A stretch of 35,460 nt of DNA, taken from the NCBI GenBank assembly GCA_025450395.1, contig JANWHK010000076.1:1-35460 (forward strand). Reading direction: 5' to 3'. The position numbers were made by a program, and so were the translations under genes. Positions 25,965 to 28,865 of this stretch are shown piece by piece. Source of the stretch: Bacteroidia bacterium (GTDB taxonomy: Bacteria; Bacteroidota; Bacteroidia; NS11-12g; UBA955). How positions within the stretch are numbered: position 1 is the stretch's first letter; each line of letters opens with the position of its first letter. Under the pieces are notes generated by a model. The model was not told the DNA's origin. It saw only the letters and a program-made list of their open reading frames with translations, and made no database searches.

Positions 25965-26747
25965 ATGAAAATGCGTTTCTTTTACCTTTTTTTTATGGTA
26001 TTTATAGTTGCCTGTAGCAATATGGGGAATACACCTGCTGAAGGTTCACGCAATGATTACTTAGATCATCAACAGATCATCAGGGAGCGAATAGATGGTC
26101 CGGCCAATGTGCAATCCAACCCCGGCGGTGAAATATTGTTCACGCTTGATGACAATATCCCTGTGGAAATCAGCCTGGCTAAGAACGGATGGCACCAGAT
26201 CCTGGTCTATGCAGAGGTCGATAGCACTGAATTTGACATGGATTCCATAAAGGCAGGTCGTGATATCATCATTGATGGAAAAAAATCAGGCAAGGTGCTG
26301 AAAACACATCGGGTAGGCATTTCCCGTTCGAAGCAAACATGGGCAATGTTGTATGGGTATATCCATAAAAATAGTATCAGGCGGGAAACAGTGATTGAAA
26401 CCTGGCTATTGGAAAAACTGCGGAAATCAGGTCGCGGACTCAAGGATTGGCAGGATTTTATCTATTGGTTCGACCTTCAAACAGATTCCGTCCAGTTTGC
26501 TCCGTTCACAGGGTATTATAATTATGAAAATGGAGTGGATGATCCTTCGCCGGGTTTCAGGGTGATGTTGCTATTTGAAGGTGAAAAGCTACAAGGCGTA
26601 CTGCATTCACGGAGCCTGCCCCTGGATGATATGTCAACCAGGTGGACAGACAGGGGACTTAAGGTTTCATTTTACAAGGATTACCCCGTGGACAAACAGG
26701 AAAAGTTCATGGAGGAACTTGAAAACTGGTTACTGACGGTGGATTAA
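25965..26747 (+). CDS. Hypothetical lipoprotein
   Basis: MKMRFFYLFFMVFIVACSN lipobox; stop overlaps the convergent ATPase stop (TTAA). Confidence 0.8.
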   Translation: MKMRFFYLFFMVFIVACSNMGNTPAEGSRNDYLDHQQIIRERIDGPANVQSNPGGEILFTLDDNIPVEISLAKNGWHQILVYAEVDSTEFDMDSIKAGRDIIIDGKKSGKVLKTHRVGISRSKQTWAMLYGYIHKNSIRRETVIETWLLEKLRKSGRGLKDWQDFIYWFDLQTDSVQFAPFTGYYNYENGVDDPSPGFRVMLLFEGEKLQGVLHSRSLPLDDMSTRWTDRGLKVSFYKDYPVDKQEKFMEELENWLLTVD

Positions 26748-27883
26748 ACTTTTTTTTCCAGCCATCGCGCGAGGAAACAATCATAAACCCTGTAATAAAA
26801 ACCCTGCTCATCTTTTTGTTTGTACACCATTTCCTTATTTAAAAGCGCTTCGAGGCTGCGTTGTACATTGGCAGGAGTGCCAAGCTGGTATTTCTGCATA
26901 AAGTATGTAGCGGAAGGTTGATAGACTTTGTCTTCGCCCGCTATGGCCTTTAACAGTTGCCATTGGTTGCCGGTCAAAAGGGTTCGGTACTGAAAAAAAA
27001 TGGGTTCGTTTTCCTGCAGCAGTTCGGCGGCGACCTGCTGGGCAATCTGTAGTGTGATCTTTTTATAGGCGCTTGCGAACAGCTTATTGCAGAGCGCCTG
27101 TGTATAATAGGTATGCATGCGGGTCCATTCCAGGATAAAGGCAATGGCATCGGGTGCGATATTGCGTTTGCGTTCCAGGAATTTCAGGGAGATGAAGCTG
27201 CTGTATTTTTCTGCTTTTATGGGTCCGAGGTACAGGGATTGGGTACTCGAGAAAAAAGGCCTTTTGGTATTGCCGAACATATCCGACAAAAGGTGCTGGC
27301 TGCTGCCGCTGAAGATGAAATGCACGTGTTTTAATTGTTGGATATGGCTGCGCAGCAATGCCTCAATGTTTTTTTCAGGGTAAAACGTGATTTGCTGGAA
27401 TTCATCAATGGCAATGATAATGGGCGTATTTTGTTTTTCAAGAAAATTGAACAGGCCGCCGAGGCTTTGTTCATATTGCTTGACCTGGGCAAAATCAAAA
27501 CTCACTTCGGGTGCGCCGCTCAATGGATCGAAACTCAGCGTGGGCCGGAAGGATTTCAGCAGCAGCAGGAATTTTTTGCCTATGCTGTTTTTTTCCGGGT
27601 AGATTTTCAATATGGCTGTTGCCACCTGGTTTGTAAAATCCCTGAGGGATTGCGTGGCATAGATATCTATATAGATGCCTTGTGCCTTTTTTTTCCGGAG
27701 GGCAGTGAATACGTGTTGTATCAGTCCGGTTTTTCCCATGCGTCTTTCCGACAGCAGGGTTGTGTTCACGCCGTTCATGGCGTTGCTGACCAATAGCTTG
27801 GTTTCTGTCTCACGGTCGCAGAACGTTGAAGGACCATGGTAACCGCTCACCGGAAAAGGATTGAGTTTGTCATCTATACCCAT
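26744..27883 (-). CDS. AAA ATPase (archaeal ATPase-like) with winged-helix-like C-terminus
   Basis: Walker A-like LLSERRMGKTGLIQHV; Walker B-like PIIIAIDEFQQI; HFIFSGSSQHLLSDMF; C-terminal NQWQLLKAIAGEDKVYQPSATYFMQKYQLGTPANVQRSLEALLNKEMVYK. ATG at 27883 preferred over 27901. Confidence 0.9.
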   Translation of the reverse strand: MGIDDKLNPFPVSGYHGPSTFCDRETETKLLVSNAMNGVNTTLLSERRMGKTGLIQHVFTALRKKKAQGIYIDIYATQSLRDFTNQVATAILKIYPEKNSIGKKFLLLLKSFRPTLSFDPLSGAPEVSFDFAQVKQYEQSLGGLFNFLEKQNTPIIIAIDEFQQITFYPEKNIEALLRSHIQQLKHVHFIFSGSSQHLLSDMFGNTKRPFFSSTQSLYLGPIKAEKYSSFISLKFLERKRNIAPDAIAFILEWTRMHTYYTQALCNKLFASAYKKITLQIAQQVAAELLQENEPIFFQYRTLLTGNQWQLLKAIAGEDKVYQPSATYFMQKYQLGTPANVQRSLEALLNKEMVYKQKDEQGFYYRVYDCFLARWLEKKV

Positions 27884-27887
27884 CCCA

Positions 27888-27895
27888 CAAATATA
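27888..27895 (-). promoter_or_regulatory. -7 box TATATTTG of the ATPase gene, overlapped by the palindrome
   Basis: Plus-strand CAAATATA; 4 nt before the ATG at 27883. Confidence 0.6.
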
Positions 27896-27971
27896 CAACA
27901 TTTTGCATTATACAAAATGTTGTATTGAAAAAATTAATTATACAAAATGTATTATGCAAAATGTTGTATTG
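27893..27971. repeat. Multi-copy palindromic/direct-repeat element, candidate operator
   Basis: ATACAACATTTTG (27893-27905) inverted to CAAAATGTTGTAT (27913-27925), repeated at 27957-27969, partial CAAAATGT at 27943-27950. Confidence 0.9.
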
Positions 27972-27992: not shown

Positions 27993-28820
27993 TCACATCC
28001 TGTGCCTGATCCAGGTCATCTGCCTTTTGGCATAATTGCGGGAATGTTGCTTGATCTTGTCCGTTACTTCCTCTTTTGAGGCCAGGCCTTCAAAATAAGG
28101 CCACCACTCGTTGTAACCAACAGACTGCAAGGCATTCAGGTGCCTGTGTGCCGACAGTCCGCGGACCTCCTCCTCCAGCCCGGCTTCTACCATCTGGTCT
28201 ACCCGGCGGTTGATGCGTTCATACAGGATGTCCCGCTCACAATCCATCTTGATGATCTCGGTCTCGAACAGGTACTTGAAATCCGGCAAGCTTGGCTGAA
28301 CCTGGAAAGGTGTTTTCCCGATCTCTATGGCCCTTATCAGCCTTTGCGGGTTTTGTAGGTCGATTGTATTATACTTATGGATATTGAGCTCCTTCAACTC
28401 CTGCTGTAAGGCCTCAATTCCCTGCTCTTCCAGCATAAGGCCCAGCTCAGCCCTTAATTCATCGTTACGGCCGGGCAGAGGGTCCAGTCCCTTCAAGAGT
28501 GCCTGTATATAAAGACCCGTGCCGCCACAAACAACCAGGTGCTCATGCTTTTCAAACAGTTTATTGACCAACTGCCTGCCTTCTTCAGCATAGCGGCCGG
28601 CATTATAGGGTGCGTGAATGCTGACATGTCCTATGAAATAATGTTGTACGGCAGCGAGCTGTTCCTCGCTTGGCCTTGCCACACCTATGTTCAGCTCTTT
28701 ATAGACCTGCCGGGAATCCGCTGACAGTATCGGGCATGACAGTTCCTGTGCCAGCCGGATGGCCTCATCAGTTTTACCGACAGCAGTCGGCCCTGTAATG
28801 ACGATTATTTTTTTTGGCAT
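27993..28820 (-). CDS. miaA: tRNA dimethylallyltransferase
   Basis: MPKKIIVITGPTAVGKTDEAIRLAQELSCPILSADSRQVYKELNIGVARPS. ATG at 28820 preferred; TATCTTTG box at 28830-28837. Confidence 0.96.
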   Translation of the reverse strand: MPKKIIVITGPTAVGKTDEAIRLAQELSCPILSADSRQVYKELNIGVARPSEEQLAAVQHYFIGHVSIHAPYNAGRYAEEGRQLVNKLFEKHEHLVVCGGTGLYIQALLKGLDPLPGRNDELRAELGLMLEEQGIEALQQELKELNIHKYNTIDLQNPQRLIRAIEIGKTPFQVQPSLPDFKYLFETEIIKMDCERDILYERINRRVDQMVEAGLEEEVRGLSAHRHLNALQSVGYNEWWPYFEGLASKEEVTDKIKQHSRNYAKRQMTWIRHRM

Positions 28821-28865
28821 GAGACACCGCAAAGATACTATTTTCACCGATAAGGCATATGCCTA

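Follow-up and report, generated by a model that had tools for sequence, protein, structure and literature searches.

A putative palindromic operator array at the promoter of an Orc1/Cdc6-like AAA+/winged-helix ATPase gene in a Bacteroidia bacterium

The stretch of DNA analysed here (the window, 35,460 nt in full) carries on its minus strand, at 26744-27883, a gene for a 379-aa ATPase of Pfam family PF01637 (ATPase_2, an AAA+/archaeal-type ATPase) with a C-terminal winged helix. The gene lies directly behind miaA (27993-28829), which is on the same strand, and its 3' end abuts a convergent plus-strand gene of unknown family (25965-26747); the start codon is an ATG at 27883-27881. The protein scores 39.4 bits against the ATPase_2 model, passing the cut-off of 33.2, and is also above the Pfam cut-off for AAA_14. 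Its best sequence matches, with E-values of 2.5e-21 and 1.1e-17, are the archaeal PF01637 proteins SSO1545 (PDB 2FNA) and PABY2304 (PDB 2QEN), in which an AAA+ domain and a winged helix follow in the same order. The same two proteins are the best fold matches among solved structures (Foldseek; 2QEN and 2FNA, E-values of 1e-14 and 1e-13), and the window ATPase is a member of the PF01637/SSO1545 family by both sequence and fold. The function of the two archaeal proteins is, however, unknown, and to our knowledge neither has a reported operator or DNA site.

The ATPase domain appears intact. The Walker A region, SERRMGKT (residues 45-52, 27728-27751, minus strand), includes the invariant R47, R48, G50 and K51, and the Walker B motif, DEFQ (residues 160-163, 27395-27406, minus strand), is invariant as well. 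Across 54-58 aligned family members the Walker A (RRxGK) and Walker B motifs do not vary. R178 and G193-S194 are invariant too, so the window ATPase is expected to be catalytically active. The AlphaFold model of the protein, made from an alignment without rows from plasmid and phage records, has a mean pLDDT of 94.7 and a pTM of 0.90. In it, helices at residues 305-317, 326-331 and 337-349 are followed by a two-strand wing, which together form a winged helix at residues 303-366 (26786-26977, minus strand), as an initial annotation of the sequence had surmised. The recognition helix is the third of these (residues 337-349, 26837-26875, minus strand), and includes R342 (codon 26858-26860). Next in rank after the archaeal PF01637 proteins, the third and fourth solved-structure matches are Orc1/Cdc6 proteins bound to origin DNA (2QBY and 2V1U; for 2QBY, E 9e-12 and TM 0.53). 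Neither a Pfam scan nor the AlphaFold model revealed a further domain in the 379 residues, and a STAND-type sensor or superhelical domain is absent. Searches with the PADLOC anti-phage models gave weak matches only (PDC-S01, E 6e-6; PDC-S27, E 7e-5). Among neighbouring ORFs of at least 80 aa, none is shared by more than 5 of the 149 family loci, and within that size range there is no conserved small partner gene of the toxin-antitoxin kind.

Upstream of the gene, a -7 promoter box, TATATTTG (27888-27895, minus strand), lies 4 nt before the ATG and matches TAnnTTTG, the Bacteroidota -7 consensus (PMC7366714). The mRNA is predicted to be near-leaderless. A TTTG at 27913-27916 (minus strand), 17 nt upstream of the -7 box, is a candidate -33 element on the basis of sequence only. 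The initial annotation took as its unit a palindrome spanning 27893-27925, with no strand assigned, and all of its coordinates proved exact: the perfect 13-bp arms (27893-27905 and 27913-27925) are exact complements separated by a 7-nt spacer, the -7 box overlaps one arm by 3 nt, the TTTG stands where it was placed, ATTATACAAAATGT occurs at 27907-27920 and again at 27937-27950, and the 20-mers at 27908-27927 and 27952-27971 differ by one base. These repeats, which lie at 27893-27971, exceed chance expectation. In the 110 nt upstream of the gene, inverted repeats score 15 (the shuffles average 7.7, with a maximum of 13) and direct repeats score 18 (average 7.2, maximum 15), and none of 1000 dinucleotide shuffles reached either score. 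The exact word TACAACATTTTG has three copies in the 2.46-Mb draft genome, all of them at the ATPase promoter. Judged by the relatives described below, the functional unit would be an 11-bp palindrome, TGTAT-N-ATACA, and not the 33-bp palindrome. With mismatches counted against this 11-bp unit, the minus strand carries putative operator unit 1, TGTATAATGCA (27904-27914, centre 27909, 1 mismatch), unit 2, TGTATAATTAA (27934-27944, centre 27939, 2 mismatches), and unit 3, TGCATAATACA (27948-27958, centre 27953, 1 mismatch), which is 14 bp from unit 2. A weak operator-like unit, TTTTCAATACA (27921-27931, centre 27926), has 3 mismatches and is doubtful.

How general is this arrangement? We gathered family members from related genomes, from samples of the phylum and of the class, and from plasmids and phages. 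The family is patchy, being present in 25 of 147 relatives, 55 of 393 genomes of the phylum sample and 75 of 395 of the class sample, in searches that differ in query and threshold. The initial annotation had held that its reading would fall if homologues lacked upstream palindromes. It survives this test: significant repeats (p<=0.01) occur in the 100 nt upstream of 102 of 149 non-redundant members, including members only 24-30% identical to the window protein; for 100-nt stretches of coding sequence from these same members, the figure is just 1 of 149. The first batch had significant repeats in 45 of 77 members, compared with 2 of 53 neighbouring genes, and the second in 58 of 72 members. 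Some relatives lack a clear array (for example, L022, L069 and L109). A search for CAAAATGTTGTAT-type palindromes in homologues had also been proposed, and here the architecture proved to be conserved, with the sequence itself conserved in close relatives only. Array sequences vary by subfamily (GGTATAATACC, TGTAAGTTACA, TGCGTTACGCA, TACGTTACGTA, TGTGTCACACA, TGTTTCAAACA and others), while the layout stays constant: 11-bp palindromes, mostly 1-4 to an array, at regular spacing. In the 78 members with a perfect 11-bp palindrome from which to define the half-site, 92 of 108 intervals between neighbouring sites measure 14 or 15 bp. Of the 149 members, 43 have a TAnnTTTG box that ends less than 7 nt before the ATG (at 3-6 nt, most often 4 nt); shuffling leads one to expect 1.6. 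With the -7 box so near the ATG, a family of leaderless or nearly leaderless mRNAs is predicted in Bacteroidota; such mRNAs are rare in Bacteroides, in which approximately 3.7% of 5' UTRs are shorter than 10 nt (PMC7366714). Forty-four arrays are accompanied by a -7 box, and in 31 of them the end of the last site falls in the interval from 3 bp inside the box to 12 bp upstream of it.

Evidence on what binds these arrays comes from the recognition helix. We defined half-sites from perfect 11-bp palindromes, which are available in 78 members only, and extracted them blind to the protein sequence. Residue 342 tracks the half-site: arginine goes with TGnnn and lysine with GGnnn or AGnnn, and where the residue is uncharged there is mostly no G at -4. 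TG at -5/-4 is found in 23 of 30 members with R342 and in 1 of 48 others (p=1e-12), and GG or AG in 16 of 20 members with K342 and in 0 of 58 others. Because the idea for this rule came from the first batch, the second batch, which had no part in finding it, was tested alone, and the association held (p=4e-7 for R342 and 1e-6 for K342). Nor did any of 2000 simulated trait evolutions on a tree of residues 1-300 reach the observed association at 342, and among representatives less than 40% identical, a basic residue still goes with G at -4 (p=6e-4). In an unbiased mutual-information scan of 352 columns, residue 338 took first place, while 342 came fourth, 339 twelfth and 341 twenty-second; several columns outside the helix also ranked high, indicating that relatedness was not fully removed. 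Rules tying residues 337 and 339 to the inner bases are suggestive only, as they are weak against the tree null (matched in 79 and 174 of 2000 simulations, respectively). With a crude measure of operator similarity, an earlier scan ranked R342 first among alignment columns, and partial Mantel tests gave weak signals of 0.09 (winged helix) and 0.12 (recognition helix), which is why the half-site method was adopted. The pattern is visible by eye when members are sorted by helix sequence. The window protein (TPANVQRSL, with R342, and half-site TGTAT) and an 84%-identical congener obey the code, though the window protein's own sites are imperfect, with 1-2 mismatches. This covariation argues that the ATPase is itself the binder, in line with the proposal in the initial annotation that it acts on its own promoter, for which there are no binding data.

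Paralogues offer a view of the same relationship within single genomes. Several genomes have 2-4 paralogues, and the arrays within a genome are mostly unlike one another. In one such genome (L173, L201, L202, L203), the helix sequence TPRNVTK accompanies GGTAT, SSANVKR accompanies TGTTA and ALSTVRQ accompanies CATAA. A 14-mer shared at 13 or more positions was found in 1 of 37 within-genome pairs. Between genomes it was found in 6.2% of pairs, and the gap is too narrow to support a claim of active divergence. The idea of a wider regulon was rejected: outside the ATPase promoters, ten genomes contain exact GGTATWATACC sites about as often as a reversed-pattern control, which points to operators that serve only their own gene. 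Gene and array also travel together. We located miaA in 16 genomes of the genus: the ATPase lies behind it only in the window genome and one other, the remaining 14 congeners have neither an ATPase gene nor an array behind miaA, and the array was found exactly where the gene is. This joint presence and absence implies that the operator comes and goes with the gene, and the empty site in the 14 congeners fits the suggestion in the initial annotation of a self-contained module. In four congeners without the ATPase behind miaA (L041, L042, L043 and L044), a TAGTCAACTTGGTTGACTA-type palindrome directly follows the miaA stop codon, occupying the place that the array has in the window genome; a terminator is one possibility, an unrelated operator another.

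Computation gives us the array, its conserved architecture, the fold, the covariation of helix and operator, and a repeat word that the genome has nowhere else. The explanation that we consider probable is direct autoregulation, most likely repression, by an Orc1/Cdc6-like AAA+/winged-helix protein. Two winged helices would bind one 11-bp palindrome, here TGTAT-N-ATACA, with R342 and neighbouring residues reading the half-site TGTAT, and several dimers would sit in a row over the core promoter at intervals of 14-15 bp. The array spans what would be the -33/-7 region of a promoter with its predicted transcription start at or beside the ATG, a position at which binding should block RNA polymerase. 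The outcome would be negative autoregulation, and whether the protein carries ATP or ADP would presumably modulate it. Binding itself, dimerisation, repression and nucleotide control are all inferred, without binding or expression data: repression is deduced from the position of the sites and ATP control from the invariant ATPase residues, and the sensing of a signal by the ATPase, which the initial annotation raised alongside repression, is likewise inference.

The array could also activate the promoter as a positive feedback switch instead of repressing it, as binding would be inferred equally in either case. MalT is a STAND-type ATPase that acts as an activator, and there are others, such as IniR (PMC5760070). 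We nevertheless consider activation unlikely, given that in 31 of 44 cases the sites overlap the -7 box or lie within 12 bp of it, a position typical of repression. A different question is whether the ATPase binds at all, or is only the regulated gene of a separate host regulator. Palindromic operators usually serve dedicated repressors, and direct evidence of protein-DNA contact is lacking. However, even among distant relatives the operator changes in step with the recognition helix of the ATPase itself, paralogues in the same genome carry different operators, and the window genome has no TACAACATTTTG copy away from this promoter, all of which leave a separate regulator with little to recommend it.

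The regular 14-15 bp spacing beside the gene resembles iterons or origin recognition boxes, and with the fold matches to Orc1/Cdc6 on origin DNA and the presence of some members on plasmid or phage records, it brings to mind an origin-like site, on which an Orc1/Cdc6-like initiator or DNA-loading factor assembles. Against this, the members are single chromosomal genes in unrelated locations with no recurrent replication neighbour, the sites sit on the core promoter, and the sequence likeness to Cdc6 is marginal, so that we give this reading very little weight. It is also conceivable that the repeats act in RNA, through hairpins or attenuation, since palindromes could fold as RNA, or that they are a landed mobile palindromic repeat (REP/MITE). 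Both seem extremely improbable: there is no Rfam match, the predicted transcript does not include the repeats, as they are upstream of the -7 box, the genome has no further TACAACATTTTG copies, and relatives share the architecture with unrelated sequences.

The window ATPase and its array have partial parallels in known systems. Archaeal and eukaryotic Orc1/Cdc6 initiators share the AAA+ domain with a C-terminal winged helix, and it is their DNA-bound forms that match the window protein. Orc1/Cdc6 proteins have multiple binding sites, often beside their own gene. The operator of the window family differs from these in varying from copy to copy and in sitting on the core promoter, and no family-level sequence match to Orc1/Cdc6 was found (the best Cdc6 profile gave E 0.13 over 69 residues). 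The STAND regulators IniR of Mycobacterium and MalT likewise couple an ATPase to a DNA-binding domain, and IniR, the ATPase of which has been modelled on SSO1545, binds the iniBAC promoter (PMC5760070). However, IniR and MalT have large ligand-sensing domains and control other operons, whereas the window ATPase has no such extra domain and appears to address its own promoter only. On the proposed reading, the protein would resemble Orc1/Cdc6 in form but act as an autoregulated winged-helix repressor does, its own DNA-binding domain recognising sites in its own promoter; this is inferred from the strong helix-operator covariation, without a binding experiment. We found no prior description of these operators in the open papers searched; subscription papers were outside the search.

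The AAA_14-DUF4143 ATPases (PF13173/PF13635) are likewise expanded, solitary ATPases of the same bacteria with upstream repeats. We had tried them as a negative control and rejected them when they turned out to be positive, with a palindrome type of their own; the neighbouring genes and coding DNA remain the valid controls. Of 29 such genes (within L217-L246), 18 have upstream DNA with a significant repeat, which differs from the 11-bp tandem array in usually being one long bipartite palindrome (for example, TTTACAAATTnGGAATT..ATTCCnAATTTGTAAA), and the C-terminal domain is a different one. The -7 box is often 4-5 nt before the ATG, and there are up to 16 copies of the gene per genome. This is apparently a second ATPase family with predicted self-operators.

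ATPases of the PF01637 type are a common group of unknown role. The residue-level link from helix to own promoter gives the family a concrete, testable activity, and its many natural helix-operator pairs, several per genome, are a ready test bed for specificity. A more ambitious picture is possible, though we hold it only tentatively and doubt it as a whole: in a widespread Orc1/Cdc6-like AAA+ family, a recognition code at residue 342 would set the outer operator bases, paralogues would be insulated by private operators, an ATP-controlled oligomer would assemble with a 14-15 bp pitch, and the unit would serve as a plug-in switch before other genes, such as type II CRISPR cas1-cas2. The patchy distribution of the family, together with TIR-NACHT fusions and insertions into cas operons, hints at conflict with mobile DNA; the fusions, the cas1 loci and phage-like contigs point towards such a role without proving it.

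In five type II CRISPR loci (L212, L213, L214, L215 and L216), the ATPase gene lies between a Cas9-sized gene and cas1, co-directional with cas1 and 4-47 nt before it, so that the promoter under the ATPase's own control may also drive cas1-cas2. The Cas9-sized gene was confirmed as cas9 in L214, L215 and L216, and L214, with its ATPase at L214:8073-9206, also has cas2 and a CRISPR array. In one genus (L071, L073, L076-L080), the ATPase and winged helix belong to a longer protein of 871-877 aa that also carries TIR and NACHT domains, on the basis of domain scans of L073 and L076; added domains of this kind occur only in the 872-877-aa members, and ATAAT-type palindromes lie upstream of some of the fusions. 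Members also occur on virus-classified contigs (L207-L211, from IMG/VR) and in a phage record (L112). Judged by eye, some of these phage-like contig members have upstream repeats, and in L208 and L211 a tandem TTAGTAAGAAAG repeat lies upstream of the gene.
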